From: an uncultured Thermoguttaceae bacterium | Lineage (GTDB): Bacteria; Planctomycetota; Planctomycetia; Pirellulales; Thermoguttaceae | Length of the DNA stretch: 64,000 nt | Reading direction: 5' to 3' | NCBI GenBank assembly: GCA_937951625.1 | Contig: CALFBP010000001.1 | Location: forward strand, 1-64,000 | Shown: positions 28,096 through 35,929 of the stretch, piece by piece | Layout of the letters: each line of letters begins with the position of its first letter | Numbering within the stretch: the stretch's first letter is position 1 | The notes under the pieces: model-generated | What the model saw: the letters and a program-made list of their open reading frames with translations, nothing else | The model's database searches: none | What the model was told of the DNA's origin: nothing | Program-made: the position numbers and the translations under genes

Positions 28096-30366
28096 TCAAA
28101 GGTGAAATCGGAAGGTCTGCGACACAGCCCGAAGCAGCCTCGCCCCAAGAGACTGCGGCGCGACAAGGATCTTGGCCTGGCCGCGGGCGCCGGGAAGCAG
28201 GCCCGTGGGCGCTTCTTCAAGGGCCACGCGAACCTGATAGGCCGGGGCTGTCGGGCGCGGCGAACCCGAGCGATCCCGGCGGATCGGCAGATCGCCTGAA
28301 TTGGCCAGCTCTCGCGGCACGAGCTTCATGTCCGTACTGGCCACCTCGACCACCGTTCCACGAAGTAGTAGGCCCGGTTGGGAATCGAGTTTTACCCGCA
28401 CCCGCTGTCCTTGTCGCAAGAACGCCACATCAGCCTGATCCACCACCAAGGCGGCCTCGAAACCCCGAGGCGCGGCCACCTGACAGACCAAAGTTCCGCG
28501 TTCCAGAAACACCCCTCGATTCCTGAGCTCCAACAGTCCGCCGTGCCAGCCGGTCAACGCGCCCCGTTCGAAAGGAGACTGCGGCACGCGCGGCGCGGCA
28601 ATCACCGTTCCAGCAACCGGCGCGCGGAGCACCAAGCGCTGCTGGTCCAACTTCCGTTGACGAAACCGCGTCTCCAGATCGGCCAAGGCTTCCTCGGCGG
28701 CTGGGATTTGCGGGGCCAAGCTGGGGTCGGCCAAAAGACGCAGGCGAAGGTGTTCCAAACGCAATCGCTGTTGTTCCTTTCGGCCCTGCAATTCAGCGAG
28801 TTCGCGGTCGATCTCGGCGTTGGCAAGTCGGGCCAACACGTCTCCCGCGGCGACTTGGGCTCCAGGCGCGACGGCCTCGATCAACCGGCCGGGAACCGAG
28901 ACGTACACCGAGTGCCCCTCCCGAGGTTGAACCACCAGCGGCGCACGAACCCGCATCGGCAACGGAACGACCAAGGCGAGCACCGCCAGGGTCAAGGTTG
29001 CGGCCACTCCCAACGCTGCCCGGCCGGTGCGAATAGGCTGGAGGCTGGTCGGGCGTGACAGCCAGACGCCGAAGCGGACGAGGGGCGCGGCAATCATGCT
29101 CCCGAGAACCACGACAGCCAGCAACGCAGCTAGGACCTGCAAGCCGTGCGGTTTGAGAAAGTGGTGAACGGTCCACAGGATCGCCGCCACGAGCAACCAA
29201 CGGTAGGTGGCCGACGCCAGCCCATAAGCGAACACAAGGCCCCGACGGCGCGGTAGATAGCGGTCTTCCGGCAGCTCGATGCCCAGGAGCCAATAACCCA
29301 GCCAGCGATGCAGCAAGGCCCGGCCGTGCTGGCTCAAGTTGGGAATCTCCAAAGCGTCGGCGAGCACGAAGTAGCCGTCGTAGCGGAGCAGCGGATTACC
29401 GTTGAGAAACACCGTGTTCACCGAGCAGATCACGACGATATTGAGGAACAGCGTGTTCCAAAATCCAGGCTCGCTGAACCACCAGAAAAATAGGGCCACC
29501 GCGGCCAAGAACAGCTCGACCAGAATGCCCGCGGCCGAAATGGCGACGCGATGCCATTTGTTCGGCAACAGCCAGGCGTCGGAGACATCGCAGTACAGGC
29601 AGGGCGTGCCTACCAACAAGAGGAGTCCGATTTCGTGGCACTCGCCGCCGAAGTGCTTGCAGGTCAAGGCGTGGCCGAGTTCGTGGAGGCATTTGACCAA
29701 GGCCAGGGCGACGGCCATCCACAGCAGATTGCCTGCCGTCCAAAAGGCCGAGGCTTGGCCCAACCGCATGGCAAGGACCTCGTATTGCACGCCCGCCAAA
29801 AGCACGGCCGCGATCACGACCAGCGCGCCGGTCGCCAGGAACCAGCCGGAGAAGAGCCAGCCGCAGCGGGGATAGAGCCAGGCGAGCATCGGCTCGGGAT
29901 CGATTCCGCGGAAGCGGATGGCGAGCACATTCAACAGGGCTTCGACCCAAGCCCTGCGCCGCCGCTGCTGGCGGCGGTGGTGCAACGTCTGGCCTTGGCC
30001 GACTGCCTCTGCGACGATCAGTCCCAGATGGTGCAAATGTCCCAAGAAGGCGTGAAGCTGCTCCAGGCCGATCTGTTGGGGCGCGAAGCGTTCCTGGAAT
30101 CGTTTCTGGAGATCGCGGAGACTCGCTTGGCCGTCGAGCCACGTCAAGATGGCGTGTTCCTCTTCGCCCAAATGGAAGTATTTGAGCGACAAAGGGTCTT
30201 TGACCAACCAATACGGAACCGACCCGTAGCACTGGGGAACCATCACCAAGTCGGGCCGAGCACGAAGTCCCAGCGGCCGGTCCGCGGCGGACGAGAACCA
30301 GTCGCGCGGAGCGGGTTTGTGCCGAGACGGCGCTCTTGCGTTCTCCTGTTCCACGGATGGGGCCAT
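28096..30366 (-). CDS. PqqD-like/M50 metallopeptidase/HlyD fusion protein
   Basis: This 756 aa membrane protein belongs to an export locus. Residues about 70-120 resemble a PqqD-type peptide-binding fold (LKYFHLGEEEHAILTWLDGQ, LHHLGLIV). Membrane helices follow, with the M50 zinc motif HELGH at 228-232 and the distal ligand region NPLLRYDGYF (Asp330). Helices continue to about 500. The C-terminal 250 residues form an HlyD adaptor with lipoyl halves (VSVPGRLIEAVAPG, LRAPVAGTVIAAP), a coiled coil and a barrel. Related M50-HlyD proteins (YydH group) are linked with peptide export. The ATG at 30366 overlaps the upstream stop as TGATG and follows GAAGGAAAG. Confidence 0.86.
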   Translation of the reverse strand: MAPSVEQENARAPSRHKPAPRDWFSSAADRPLGLRARPDLVMVPQCYGSVPYWLVKDPLSLKYFHLGEEEHAILTWLDGQASLRDLQKRFQERFAPQQIGLEQLHAFLGHLHHLGLIVAEAVGQGQTLHHRRQQRRRRAWVEALLNVLAIRFRGIDPEPMLAWLYPRCGWLFSGWFLATGALVVIAAVLLAGVQYEVLAMRLGQASAFWTAGNLLWMAVALALVKCLHELGHALTCKHFGGECHEIGLLLLVGTPCLYCDVSDAWLLPNKWHRVAISAAGILVELFLAAVALFFWWFSEPGFWNTLFLNIVVICSVNTVFLNGNPLLRYDGYFVLADALEIPNLSQHGRALLHRWLGYWLLGIELPEDRYLPRRRGLVFAYGLASATYRWLLVAAILWTVHHFLKPHGLQVLAALLAVVVLGSMIAAPLVRFGVWLSRPTSLQPIRTGRAALGVAATLTLAVLALVVPLPMRVRAPLVVQPREGHSVYVSVPGRLIEAVAPGAQVAAGDVLARLANAEIDRELAELQGRKEQQRLRLEHLRLRLLADPSLAPQIPAAEEALADLETRFRQRKLDQQRLVLRAPVAGTVIAAPRVPQSPFERGALTGWHGGLLELRNRGVFLERGTLVCQVAAPRGFEAALVVDQADVAFLRQGQRVRVKLDSQPGLLLRGTVVEVASTDMKLVPRELANSGDLPIRRDRSGSPRPTAPAYQVRVALEEAPTGLLPGARGQAKILVAPQSLGARLLRAVSQTFRFHL

Positions 30367-31268
30367 CACGGCTTTCCTTCGATGACCATGGTTGCCCTCA
30401 TGCCAGGCCGGAGCCGCAACTGGCGGTTCTCGACCTCCGCCCAAATCCGCACTTGGTTATTGACCGGGTCGATTTCAGGGTCCACGAACACGATTTTGCC
30501 TGGCAGTTCCATGTCTGGTCCGTCGAAAAGATTGACGACGAGGCGGACCGGCCTGCCTTGCAAGTCCTCGCGGAGCAGCTCGGTCTTCACGAAGCCCTCG
30601 GCGCGGAGGCGGTCCAGGCGAAGGATTCGCACCACGACTTCGCCCGGCTTGACCCATTCCCCGCGGTGCCGATAAACCTGGACCACCAGGCCCGACAACG
30701 GGGCGACGATCTTGTGCTGGCTCAGCTTCTGTTGGGCCGCCCGCTGCTCGTTTTCCTTCACCTGACGCGTCAAGGCGGCGATCCGCGATTCGTGTTCGGC
30801 CTGCTCGATTTCCAGCCGACCCTTCTCCACCAGCAAGCGAAGGCGGTCGAGTTCCGTCTGCGAGACGCTCTTGGGGTACCGCTGGTTGGTCTCCAGCGAC
30901 CGTTGCAACTCGGCCTCGGCGACCTCCACCGATTTCTTGGCGAAGCGGACATTGACCGTGTTTTCCGCGTTGGCTCGGGCGATCTCGTATTCCAATGTGG
31001 CGCGTTCGACGGCGATCCGCGCCTCGGCATCGTCGATCTCGGCGATCGTCGCGTCCTGCTCCACCATCTGGCCCTCGCCTACGTGGACGGCGGCCAACAC
31101 GCCGGATTCTCGGGCAGGCACGTCAACCTGCTCCACCAGGCGGAGGAGCATGGCGGGGACCTCGATCCGACCCTTTGGGGCCTGGGCCGCCGCGCCCCCC
31201 ACCCAAACGAGAAGACCCGCCGCCATCGCCGCCCGCCCAAAGTTCCTCCGAAAAGAATTTCGCGCCAT
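30366..31268 (-). CDS. HlyD-family periplasmic adaptor subunit
   Basis: This 300 aa exported adaptor has a signal-like N-terminus (FGRAAMAAGLLVWVGGAAAQA). The two lipoyl half-motifs are ESGVLAAVHVGEGQMVE and KIVAPLSGLVVQVYRHRGEWV. They are separated by a coiled-coil hairpin of about 120 residues (VEVAEAELQRSLETNQRYP to KENEQRAAQQKL), followed by a beta-barrel region. It probably bridges inner-membrane components and the outer-membrane channel. The ATG at 31268 follows AAGGA and lies 11 bases after the upstream stop. A TTG at 31283 is less likely. It is the middle gene of a tightly packed three-gene run. Confidence 0.88.
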   Translation of the reverse strand: MARNSFRRNFGRAAMAAGLLVWVGGAAAQAPKGRIEVPAMLLRLVEQVDVPARESGVLAAVHVGEGQMVEQDATIAEIDDAEARIAVERATLEYEIARANAENTVNVRFAKKSVEVAEAELQRSLETNQRYPKSVSQTELDRLRLLVEKGRLEIEQAEHESRIAALTRQVKENEQRAAQQKLSQHKIVAPLSGLVVQVYRHRGEWVKPGEVVVRILRLDRLRAEGFVKTELLREDLQGRPVRLVVNLFDGPDMELPGKIVFVDPEIDPVNNQVRIWAEVENRQLRLRPGMRATMVIEGKP

Positions 31269-31279
31269 CAAGTGGTCCT

Positions 31280-33259
31280 TCAAAATAAGATCCAGGTCCG
31301 CAAGGCATCGATCAGATCATGAAACCAGACGTAGCCGAGCGAGCGGGTCCCGCAATGGATGCGGGCCACGACCGTGGCGCCTGGAACGCGTTCGGGAATC
31401 TCGTCGGCGTCGACGGCCGCCGTGGCCAGGACCACCGCGCCGTCGAGTTCGCTCATTTCGGTCCGTTCGGCCAGTCGGTCCAATTTCGCCCGCAGCACCC
31501 GGCCAGGATTAGTGGCCAAAGCGAAGGACACGTCCAAGGGGCCGTCGCCGCGGGCCTGGGCCTCGGCGAGGTGGCGAATCCGCCGTTCCGGGATGCGAAG
31601 CTCCAAACACCAAGGTCCGGAAAGATCGGCGACCGTCACGAGCGCTTGTCCGCGGCTCACGGGCCGCGCAGCCAACAATTGCTCGGCGTCCCAGGTGAGC
31701 AGTTCGCCGTCGATCGGGCTGCGGAGGAGAAGCTCCGACTCCTGATGCTTGAGGATTTCGTGCTGCGTCTGGAGACTCGCCACGAGGGCACGGAGCTCCT
31801 CCTGCTGGGCCGTCAGTTCGGTGTAGCGCTTGCGCTGAGTCTCGTCCTCGCGCCGATTCAAGAGTTGTTCCGATTCCACCGAGGCCAACCGCTTTCGCGC
31901 GGTTTGAAGCTCTCCCCAGACCCGTTTCAACTCCAACTCCAAAGACGGTTTGCGAAGCACGAGCACAATCTGCTGGGCTGCTACTCGGCTCCCCGTTTGA
32001 GCCCGCAATTCACTCACCACGGCATCGTCCGGGGCGAAAAGATCGCGCATCACCACGGGTTGCAGCTCGCCTCGGGCCTCGACGCTGAAATCGGCCGGCG
32101 TCCAGGCGAGGACTGCCATCAAGGCCGCCAACGCCGCCCAGCCGGCCGCCCAGCCCAGCAGACGCCGCCCCTGACATGCCACTGCGGCCGCCGCCAGGCG
32201 GCGCTGGAACTGCCCGAAAGGCAAACGTTCCAACGTCAAGGCGTTTTGAATCGCCACGGCGCTCTGGGCCGTCAGGGCGGCTGTCATGTTGCGGAGTGCT
32301 TCGTCGGCCGGGCCGAAGAATCGCTCCACCACCAGGCCACCCACGATCTTCCGTTCGCCCGGCTCACCGTCGGAGCGCTCGATGCACAAGGGGAGGATCC
32401 CCAGCCCCCGGGCGTGCGATTCGTCGAGGTATTCTTGGAGTGGGGACTCGAGTTGGGGTGCGAGTTCTCGGTCCGTGGGATACCAAAGCGGTTCGCCAAC
32501 CGCCAATGCTGCCTCGGCGAGTCGTTCCAAAAGGCGGACTGTGTTGGATCGGCGACTGAAGCTCTCGCTGCCGCTGATCGCCACGACCTGGTGCCGTCTT
32601 CGCCGCCGGACAAGCACGCTCACGCGGTCGCAAGAAAGTATGCGCAGCCCTTCGTTGGCGATTGCGTAAGCAACCGATTCCAGATCCAAACTGGCATGAA
32701 TCCGGCGGGAGAAGTCGTCGAGTCGGCTCCAGTGCCGCTGGACAAGCCGCAGCTCGCCAAGCAACGCGCGGCGCTCGTAGTCGGCTATGATTTCGCACAC
32801 GGCCTCCATGAAACGGAGGTAGCCGTTCTGAAGATCGGCAGATGCCCCGGGCCGCGCGGCAAGCTCGAACACTCCGCCCGTTGATTCGTCCACGGTCCAA
32901 GGAACGTAGAGGAGGAGCCAGTTTGTAGGATTCGGAGAGGAGAGATCGGAAGCAACGGGCACACCCGGTCCCATCGCCCTGGCCGATTGGCGGTCCAGTA
33001 CCCACGCCGCGGACATGCGACGCCACCCAGCCACTCGGGGGTCTGCCATCTCCCCCTGCGCACAGCAGCCCACCACGGCCTCGGGCTTCAAATCAGCCAG
33101 GCCCCGTCGTCGCCAACAGGCAGCCCCTCCAGAAGTTGTAGAGGATACCAGGCGCTCAAGGAGGCAACGATAAAACGTTTCGCGGTCTGGCTCTTCCTTT
33201 ACGAGGTTCGCCAGTGCGTCCAGCAACGTGTCGATCTGTTGGAGCACTGCATCGGCCAT
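31280..33259 (-). CDS. GAF-domain/HlyD adaptor fusion
   Basis: This 659 aa protein is predicted to have a cytoplasmic sensory half and a periplasmic adaptor half. Residues about 1-340 read as one or two GAF-like domains (HASLDLESVAYAIANEGLRILSCDRVSVLV, then SAVAIQNALTLERL). One membrane helix is at about 366-386 (LLGWAAGWAALAALMAVLAW). The rest is HlyD-like: a first lipoyl half (LFAPDDAVVSELRAQTG), a coiled coil, a second half (LLLRSPIDGELLTWDAEQL) and a barrel. The layout suggests export gated by a cytoplasmic signal. It is the first gene of the run and divergent from the TolC-like gene. Confidence 0.85.
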   Translation of the reverse strand: MADAVLQQIDTLLDALANLVKEEPDRETFYRCLLERLVSSTTSGGAACWRRRGLADLKPEAVVGCCAQGEMADPRVAGWRRMSAAWVLDRQSARAMGPGVPVASDLSSPNPTNWLLLYVPWTVDESTGGVFELAARPGASADLQNGYLRFMEAVCEIIADYERRALLGELRLVQRHWSRLDDFSRRIHASLDLESVAYAIANEGLRILSCDRVSVLVRRRRRHQVVAISGSESFSRRSNTVRLLERLAEAALAVGEPLWYPTDRELAPQLESPLQEYLDESHARGLGILPLCIERSDGEPGERKIVGGLVVERFFGPADEALRNMTAALTAQSAVAIQNALTLERLPFGQFQRRLAAAAVACQGRRLLGWAAGWAALAALMAVLAWTPADFSVEARGELQPVVMRDLFAPDDAVVSELRAQTGSRVAAQQIVLVLRKPSLELELKRVWGELQTARKRLASVESEQLLNRREDETQRKRYTELTAQQEELRALVASLQTQHEILKHQESELLLRSPIDGELLTWDAEQLLAARPVSRGQALVTVADLSGPWCLELRIPERRIRHLAEAQARGDGPLDVSFALATNPGRVLRAKLDRLAERTEMSELDGAVVLATAAVDADEIPERVPGATVVARIHCGTRSLGYVWFHDLIDALRTWILF

Positions 33260-33559
33260 AAAAGGGCGTTGGTCTGAACCACAAGGGTCCGGTGTACTCC
33301 AGATTAGTGGTTTTTGCTTTTCTTATGAACGGTGGGTCGAAGGTTTGTCATTGTTTGGCCAGGAAATTGCGGCGTTTGAGGATGATGGGAAAGATTAGGG
33401 CTTTACGTGACTTCGGAAGAACTTGGAAGCGTGATCAAGGAGTCTCGTTTCAACTGTCGATTATGACGAAAAAGCCGTATTTGTCGGGAGTTTTGGGCCG
33501 ACGGAATGTAAGGGCCACGAGGCTTTGACCGCGCCCTTCGCCAATATTGCAGGTTGATG
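33260..33559. other. Divergent leader between the GAF-HlyD and TolC-like genes
   Basis: This 300-base stretch is AT-richer than its surroundings. It holds no supported gene and probably carries the two divergent promoters. I could not pick a convincing -35/-10 pair by eye. Confidence 0.4.
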
Positions 33560-35929
33560 ATGGCCAAACGGCTCGGGTGGGCGTTGTTGCTCGCGGGGAC
33601 CGTGGTCCTGATGTTTTCAGGCTGCTTGGTCCGCCGCGAAACTGCGCGCGTGCCGCCTCACACCACCTTGGATTTCAGCCAGAGAGCCTTGGAGACAGAA
33701 TATCCGGACGTCGAGTCGGCGCCGAGCGATCAGGTGGGGGGGCCAGGAAATCCTCGCTCGCTGGAGGACCACGACAAACTCAAATACCAGGACATCACGC
33801 TTCAGGAGGCGATCCAGCTTGCGCTCGAGCACTCTCAGGTCATGGCCGACTTAGGTGGGACAGTGCTGCGTTCGCCCGACACGATGCGAACGACCTACGA
33901 TCCCGCCGTGCAGGAGACCGACCCACAGTTCGGCGTCGAAGGCGCCCTCAGCGCGTTCGACGCCCAATTTGCCTCCAGCTTGCTATTTGAACACAACGAC
34001 CGGCGATACAACAACCGTTTCGTGGGGAATTTGGGGTTCTTCGACCAGGAGTTCAATATCTTTAAGGCGGAAGTCACGAAGCGAGCCGTGACCGGCAGCC
34101 AGTTCACGGTACGCAAGACCGTGGACTTCGACCGCAACAACAACCTTGGCAATCAATTTCGCCAGGGCGCGTGGGATGCGCTGGTCGAAGGCGAGGTCCG
34201 CCATTCGTTTCTGCGTGGCGGTGGCGTGGAATTCAATCGCATTGCGGGCACCAGCGGCCAGAACGGTGTATACAACGGGGTGTTGATCGCCCGCGTAAGG
34301 AGCGACATTTCGCTGGCCGATTTCCAAATGGGCGTGCGCGACCTTTTGGCCAACGTAGAAAACGCCTACTGGGACTTGTATTTCGCTTACCGCGATCTGG
34401 ACACCAAGATCCGTGCCCGCGACTCTGCCCTGGAAACCTGGAGAAGGGTTCACGCCTTGTACAAGACGGGACGCCGAGGCGGCGAGGCCGAGAAAGAGGC
34501 CCAGGCCCGAGAGCAATACTTCCGCTTCGAGTCGGAGGTGCAGAACGCCCTCTCGGGACGCCCACTCGATGCCACCCGAACAAACAACGGCACCAGCCCG
34601 GGCACGTTTCGCGCCGTCCCCGGAGTCTACCTGGCCGAGCGCCGGTTGCGGTTGATCATGGGGCTGCCGCCGAACGGAGATTTCCTCTTTCGTCCTGCCG
34701 ACGAGCCGCCGGTGGCACGTGTTCGCTTTGACTGGCCAGTGGTGATCGACGAAGCCCTCGTCCAGCGTGAAGAACTCCGCCGCCAACGCTGGGAGGTCAA
34801 GCGCCGCGAGCTGGAATTGATCGCCAGCAAGAACAGTCTCTTGCCGTCGTTGGACTTCGTGGGACGCTATCGGTGGCGAGGCTTCGGCGAACACTTGCTC
34901 GACAGCGAACGCGACGGACGGCCCCCGTTTGACAATGCCTTCATGGACCTCACCAGCGGCAAGTTCCAGGAATGGCAGATGGGCCTGGAGTTTTCGATGC
35001 CCTTCGGGTTCCGCCAGGGGCATGCCGCGGTTCGCAACGCCGAACTGCGTTTGGCCCAGGCCCGAGCCCTGCTTCGCGAGCAGGAACTTCAAATCGCCCA
35101 TGACCTGAGCACCGCGGTCAGCGAGCTGGACCGTGCCTATTGGCTGTTGCAGACGGAAACGAACCGTGCCATCGCGGCCCACCAGCAGCTCGAGGCGCTT
35201 TGGACCGCCTATGAGAACGATAAAGCGGAATTCTATGTGGTGCTCGACGCCCAGCGCCGCGCGGCGGACGCCGAGAGCCGCTACCACCAGGCGCGGGTCG
35301 AGTACATCGTGGCGTTGCGCAACGTCCACTTCGAGAAGGGGTCGCTGCTGGCGTACTGCGGCGTGATGCTTGCTGAGGGGCCTTGGCCGCTAAAGGCCTA
35401 TGTGGATGCCGAGCGACTGGAGAGGCGACGTTGGAAGGGGCAACTCAGCACGGATTATCGGCTTGCACTCCCGAACTGGCTGACTCGGGACGATGTTCCG
35501 CGGCCTGACGGAAGCGCCCCGGTGGTGCCCTGGGAGGCCGAGCCACCGCCCGACCCGGGAAAAACCCCACCCGAACCTACCGCCAGCGAGGCCGACGGGC
35601 CCCTCCCGGCTGAGCCTGCCGTGCAAGGAAAGCTGGGCGACTCGCAACCGAAAAACCAAATTGGCCGATCGTCCGATTTGATGCACGAAGCGGTCCCGCC
35701 AAGCCAGCCGGGTCACAAGCCGATCACGCCCGTGCTGCTCGAACAGCCAGCTTCGGCTAAGGAACCAGACCTTGCGGATCGTTTTCTCCGACAGATTGGC
35801 TTTTGGTCTTCGGAGCCCTGTCCCCCGCGGTTGCAACAACCTGAATCGGCGTTGCAAAGCGATCGGCGGCCTGCCCTGCCTTCGCTCGGCGGTCAGCCAC
35901 CGACAGCGCCGCACCCCCTTGGCATGTGA
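33560..35929 (+). CDS. TolC-like outer-membrane efflux lipoprotein
   Basis: This is the outer-membrane channel candidate for the adjacent export genes. It has 789 aa. The signal peptide (LGWALLLAGTVVLMFSGC) ends in a lipobox-like SGC. The body shows outer-membrane efflux repeats: ITLQEAIQLALEHS, a long coiled segment near VENAYWDLYFAYRDLDTK, and a second repeat LRLAQARALLREQELQIAHDLS. The C-terminal 150 residues form a Pro-rich tail unlike typical TolC. TTG, ATG and ATG follow one another at 33554-33560. The last is chosen because AGG then lies 6 bases upstream. It is transcribed away from the adaptor genes, across a 300-base gap. Confidence 0.85.
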   Translation: MAKRLGWALLLAGTVVLMFSGCLVRRETARVPPHTTLDFSQRALETEYPDVESAPSDQVGGPGNPRSLEDHDKLKYQDITLQEAIQLALEHSQVMADLGGTVLRSPDTMRTTYDPAVQETDPQFGVEGALSAFDAQFASSLLFEHNDRRYNNRFVGNLGFFDQEFNIFKAEVTKRAVTGSQFTVRKTVDFDRNNNLGNQFRQGAWDALVEGEVRHSFLRGGGVEFNRIAGTSGQNGVYNGVLIARVRSDISLADFQMGVRDLLANVENAYWDLYFAYRDLDTKIRARDSALETWRRVHALYKTGRRGGEAEKEAQAREQYFRFESEVQNALSGRPLDATRTNNGTSPGTFRAVPGVYLAERRLRLIMGLPPNGDFLFRPADEPPVARVRFDWPVVIDEALVQREELRRQRWEVKRRELELIASKNSLLPSLDFVGRYRWRGFGEHLLDSERDGRPPFDNAFMDLTSGKFQEWQMGLEFSMPFGFRQGHAAVRNAELRLAQARALLREQELQIAHDLSTAVSELDRAYWLLQTETNRAIAAHQQLEALWTAYENDKAEFYVVLDAQRRAADAESRYHQARVEYIVALRNVHFEKGSLLAYCGVMLAEGPWPLKAYVDAERLERRRWKGQLSTDYRLALPNWLTRDDVPRPDGSAPVVPWEAEPPPDPGKTPPEPTASEADGPLPAEPAVQGKLGDSQPKNQIGRSSDLMHEAVPPSQPGHKPITPVLLEQPASAKEPDLADRFLRQIGFWSSEPCPPRLQQPESALQSDRRPALPSLGGQPPTAPHPLGM

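Follow-up and report, generated by a model that had tools for sequence, protein, structure and literature searches.

HlyD-type adaptors and TolC-like channels normally work with ABC, RND or MFS pumps, and RiPP recognition element (RRE) domains have so far been familiar from peptide natural-product pathways. In 2015, Kamneva, Poudel and Ward described a locus that resembles type I secretion and is associated with a secondary SecA ATPase, for which M50, HlyD, GAF-HlyD and OEP proteins were reported as partners and the ABC gene was absent (PMC4452313). The secondary SecA was considered a possible motor, some of the SecA genes were found elsewhere in the genome, and no biological role was assigned to the module (PMC4452313). 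One further paper in the literature searched cites this work. The locus analyzed here, from a stretch of 64,000 nucleotides of an uncultured Thermoguttaceae bacterium (the window), is a split-motor member of this secondary-SecA/HlyD module. An initial sequence-only reading had proposed an undescribed system; since the module was published in 2015 and a SecA of the same kind is encoded on contig C11 of this genome, that proposal does not stand. A candidate cargo for the module and a recognition element appear to be new. The RRE domain and the LEPR cargo are proposals of the present analysis, and neither a LEPR cargo for the module nor an RRE in a protein exporter was found in the literature searched (preprints, most subscription papers and the NCBIfam notes on LEPR-XLL were outside the scope of this search).

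Four open reading frames were confirmed in the locus. Three are on the minus strand and encode an M50-HlyD fusion (28096-30366), recognized by its reading frame, Pfam and alignment, an HlyD-type periplasmic adaptor (30366-31283) and a GAF-HlyD fusion (31280-33259); the fourth, on the plus strand and divergent from this triad, encodes a TolC-like outer-membrane channel with a lipobox-like FSGC near its start (33554-35929). The packed minus-strand run and the divergent TolC-like gene of the sequence-only reading are therefore supported by both reading frames and Pfam. For M50-HlyD, the ATG at 30366, which abuts the HlyD stop, is a better start than the listed upstream TTG at 30444; with this ATG, on sequence grounds the most likely translation start, the three minus-strand genes would lie nearly end to end. 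HlyD domains were matched in all three minus-strand proteins, and the separate adaptor, at 109 bits, scored above the RND_mfp cut-off, with further matches to HlyD_3 and HlyD_D23. The fusion M50-HlyD consists of an RRE/PqqD-like domain, an M50 membrane domain and an HlyD adaptor part; its Peptidase_M50 match, at 27.2 bits, is exactly at the cut-off. The GAF match in GAF-HlyD (residues 192-336; 32252-32686, minus strand) is weak, with a Pfam E of 7e-4 that is slightly under the curated cut-off, and the TolC-like protein matched OEP with 72.9 bits.

The absence of a linked pump was confirmed, as no ABC, RND or MFS pump gene was found in the window cluster. Among 147 loci, some of them overlapping, pump-like neighbours within 8 kb were only sporadic (3 with ABC motifs, 5 RND-like and 10 MFS-like), and two of the three ABC-motif neighbours look by sequence like UvrA and SMC. 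A pump consistently adjoining the locus in relatives, which had been named as evidence against the sequence-only reading, was not seen, and a hidden pump was rejected on the same grounds. Like classical type I secretion (HlyB-HlyD-TolC), the locus has HlyD-type adaptors and a TolC-like channel, and one-step export of large proteins is proposed for it; unlike that system, it has no ABC transporter, it has three different adaptors, two of which are fused to M50/RRE and GAF parts, and the proposed tag is N-terminal. As there is no ABC gene at the locus and none consistently in relatives, we do not class it as type I.

A SecA-like gene of about 650 amino acids adjoins the triad in 22 of the same 147, partly overlapping, loci. 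The genome of the window encodes its secondary SecA on another contig (C11:47500-49416), separately from a longer SecA on contig C45. The C11 protein matched SecA_DEAD, SecA_PP_bind and P-loop_SecA and retains the preprotein cross-linking domain; a wing-scaffold domain was not found in it by Pfam. As in the 2015 module, M50-HlyD, HlyD and GAF-HlyD proteins, there sometimes with an OEP protein, are encoded in one locus that has no ABC gene, and a secondary SecA without the wing-scaffold domain is present in the genome. In contrast to that module, SecA is not in the same locus, and the TolC-like gene lies divergently beside the triad. Unlinked SecA genes were also among the cases of 2015 (PMC4452313), and the unlinked position is therefore no bar to membership. 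The spare SecA copy probably serves the export module as motor where an ABC pump would be usual.

Each species was represented by one genome in a scan from which the best 80 related loci were kept; by title, nearly all were planctomycete loci, mainly from Pirellulales, with a few other titles. Where contigs were long enough, the order GAF-HlyD, HlyD, M50-HlyD was found almost without exception across these approximately 80 loci, which is far beyond chance and answers the earlier suggestion that the gene order be sought across planctomycetes. M50-HlyD was found in 67 of 294 genomes of the phylum, and only one genome sampled from the class of the window genome was without it; a TolC homologue close to that of the window adjoins eight of the best 80 loci (L006-L010, L019, L071 and L084). 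The HELGH motif of M50-HlyD (residues 228-232; 29671-29685, minus strand) was identified by sequence and alignment, and its loss in most homologues had been named as evidence against the sequence-only reading; HExxH is kept in 82/82 proteins of the first planctomycete set and in 17/17 proteobacterial homologues. An NGNPLLRYDG motif (residues 322-331; 29374-29403, minus strand) has conserved counterparts in the planctomycete alignments and, judged from these conserved columns, likely represents the second part of the M50 active site. Planctomycete proteins also share conserved cysteines after HExxH (CKHFGGEC and TPCLYC, at about residues 236-259 of M50-HlyD), which could form a metal or disulfide site. 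The same genome carries a second GAF-HlyD/HlyD/M50-HlyD triad on contig C6 (L086, G000:C6, 12151-18116), which has no neighbouring TolC and represents the majority type among relatives; its M50-HlyD is 44% identical to that of the window. Long neighbours that recur beside this second type (clusters 23, 27 and 41) probably reflect lineage synteny, by visual judgement, and were not counted as parts of the module.

The N-terminal part of M50-HlyD (residues 25-146) was modelled well, with a mean pLDDT of 88. The seven best PDB matches in Foldseek, with a best E of 1.7e-3 and TM values of 0.63-0.73 by target length, were leader-bound TbiB1, a leader-bound lasso-peptide B1 protein and PqqD. Because these are all RRE or PqqD proteins, an RRE is the best reading of the modelled fold (residues ~34-119; 30010-30267, minus strand). 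The domain may bind LEPR tags. The PqqD-like domain suspected from the sequence thus finds support in the predicted fold; PqqD was not called in M50-HlyD by the Pfam sequence search. The full-length model matched only adaptors among the 50 PDB matches listed and, therefore, is no test of the M50 active site.

In the neighbourhood of distant loci, large proteins were found to have an N-terminal basic stretch and an LExLExRxLLxA-like motif, which is LEPR-XLL in NCBIfam (NF012209). As an independent test, the 294 phylum genomes of the M50-HlyD search were also searched with NF012209; 40 genomes were over the cut-off by count, 39 of them among the sites listed. Among these, LEPR-XLL sites were present in 35/67 M50-positive versus 4/227 M50-negative genomes, an odds ratio of 61 that is inflated by relatedness, and a within-family test was therefore made. 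In families with both M50-positive and M50-negative members, 22 LEPR co-occurrences were observed versus 15.2 expected (P 1.2e-5; M50-negative genomes not named in the results were left out of this table), and 8 LEPR sites were located at most 10 kb from an M50 gene versus 0.98 expected (P 7e-6), both P values being approximate since the genomes are related. The other 32 of the 67 M50-positive genomes had no LEPR site over the cut-off among the sites listed, which suggests either a tag with more variation than the NF012209 model covers or the existence of other cargo. Genome G165 had a clear LEPR site and no M50 detected.

A LEPR motif profile of our own, partly seeded with locus neighbours and thus not independent, matched 13/20 M50-positive versus 1/20 M50-negative genomes, the single M50-negative match being a 191-aa frame with an E of 0.0498. 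A pattern search found no LEPR-like motif or LEPR gene in the 64-kb window; in the whole genome, the profile gave 14 matches, 8 with E<0.05, and about 10 LEPR-like N-termini, versus one match (E 0.94) for a column-permuted control. In resolved frames of this genome, the motif is at most about 75 residues from the first possible start, and the LEPR N-termini that were read have no obvious hydrophobic core. The motif is N-terminal on the proposed cargo in this genome, as it is near homologous loci. A protein of 1183 amino acids with SdrD_B/SpaA-like repeats (L092:192-3743; G000:C11), whose gene lies about 6 kb away from that of the secondary SecA, has the N-terminal LEPR-like motif FEEMEPRQYLSA. 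The term LEPR-XLL occurs in two papers of the literature searched, one on Vibrio and one on Lake Baikal. The passage on a giant LEPR-XLL protein in the former names no exporter for it, and an assigned exporter for LEPR-XLL proteins was not found in the literature searched. The peptide cargo favoured by the sequence-only reading gives way here to large proteins that carry a LEPR-type motif at the N-terminus and that, from motif and linkage, are the likely cargo.

Homologous clusters were also found on proteobacterial plasmids, and giant genes with LEPR-like N-termini head the cluster in 8 of 10 judgeable cases; other loci were left unjudged, either because the gene start was outside the stretch or because the gene was a fragment. 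The clusters of Thalassospira, Pseudosulfitobacter and Pontibrevibacter begin with a gene of 12 to 39 kb that is annotated LEPR-XLL and is followed by a GAF-HlyD homologue, M50-HlyD and then HlyD, with a SecA-like gene between M50-HlyD and HlyD in the latter two genera and DUF3467 between the LEPR-XLL gene and GAF-HlyD in two of the three. The Methylosinus cluster is arranged likewise, and the product of its 26.5-kb gene has the N-terminus FDTLEPRVLLNA. The giants of two Azospirillum species, Cupriavidus and E. coli begin with LEPRFMFDAA, LEPRLLYDAA or LESRQLFDGA; the second adaptor in these clusters, at about 450 amino acids, is too short for a GAF part, and no linked SecA was found in the loci read. 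In the Phyllobacterium cluster, the large neighbour lacks a LEPR motif, and a LEPR neighbour was not found for the Indioceanicola cluster. SecA was linked in 7/8 loci with a long GAF-type adaptor versus 0/9 with a short one (P 4e-4), and because several of these 17 loci are close relatives, this is only a hint that SecA linkage goes with the GAF-type adaptor. The small DUF3467 gene is located between giant gene and adaptors at L178:12690-12986, L183:12839-13120, L189:12639-12959 and L191:7641-7985, and is also found beside some planctomycete triads. The E. coli and Citrobacter plasmids (L181 and L193) carry a version without SecA and GAF, with a 13-kb Ig-like gene; both clusters adjoin IS elements, and that of Citrobacter also lies next to tellurium-resistance genes.

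Building on gene content, conservation, the modelled RRE fold, the SecA paralogue and the genomic linkage to LEPR proteins, which have direct support, we consider it fairly probable that the module carries out SecA-driven export of LEPR-tagged proteins through the HlyD and TolC parts, with the RRE reading the tag and the M50 domain perhaps cutting it. The motor, tag binding, cleavage, conduit and gating are steps that we infer. The cargo would be a large protein with an N-terminal basic segment ending in a LEPR-type motif (~LExLExRxLLxA) and without an obvious hydrophobic signal peptide. This tag would be bound by the RRE domain of M50-HlyD, the truncated SecA ATPase from contig C11 would drive the cargo chain, and the M50 membrane part, which may also clip the tag, would form or join an inner-membrane site. 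From there, the periplasmic conduit to the TolC-like channel would be provided by the three HlyD parts, and the GAF domain could act as a gate or as the place where SecA docks. That these parts constitute a distinct route for giant proteins, in which a truncated SecA and an M50-based inner-membrane unit feed a three-HlyD/TolC conduit after the RRE has read the LEPR tag, cleaved or not, is a more tentative proposal, plausible but short of probable.

Some of the same features would suit the export of small peptides that carry a leader and resemble daptides or epipeptides, in which case the RRE and M50 domains would serve their maturation: the modelled RRE fold, a weak match of the M50 domain to the YydH/LiaK model and a match to the daptide metalloprotease model (NF041824). 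The latter reached 173 bits, however, far under the cut-off of 300. A small precursor gene, which the sequence-only reading had advised looking for among conserved neighbours, was rejected after clustering of ORFs of at least 60 amino acids gave only DUF3467, in some loci, and the recurrent linked candidates are large LEPR proteins, so this explanation seems very unlikely. The M50 domain resembles DapM and the YydH/LiaK metalloproteases as an M50-type HExxH membrane protease related by sequence, yet differs in being well below their family cut-offs, fused to HlyD and accompanied by no precursor peptide that could be found. An ordinary small-molecule efflux set with an unlinked ABC, RND or MFS pump, the LEPR linkage being a lineage effect, would agree with the usual partners of HlyD and TolC parts and with the RND_mfp score of the window HlyD. 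It is just as improbable, since no consistent pump is nearby in the 147 loci, the membrane M50 domain and RRE fused to an adaptor are left unexplained, and the LEPR linkage holds within families and in a second phylum.

Somewhat less remote, but still unlikely, is that the secondary SecA works with ordinary SecYEG and that the HlyD, M50 and TolC parts serve only a later step from periplasm to outside. The preprotein cross-linking domain of the SecA paralogue is consistent with this, as is the report that accessory SecA2 proteins of other organisms export their own distinct set of substrates (PMC7503281). The lack of a wing-scaffold part in the paralogue, the LEPR N-termini without an obvious hydrophobic core and the membrane domain that M50-HlyD itself contributes argue against it, though not decisively.

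The module of 2015 has so far been without a known cargo, and some LEPR-XLL proteins reach lengths of thousands of residues; once module and proteins are connected, the questions of cargo and exporter become testable together. If the proposal is true, leader-reading RRE domains would extend from small peptides to the secretion of very large proteins, which would suggest how planctomycetes and some proteobacteria place giant adhesin-like proteins on their surface.
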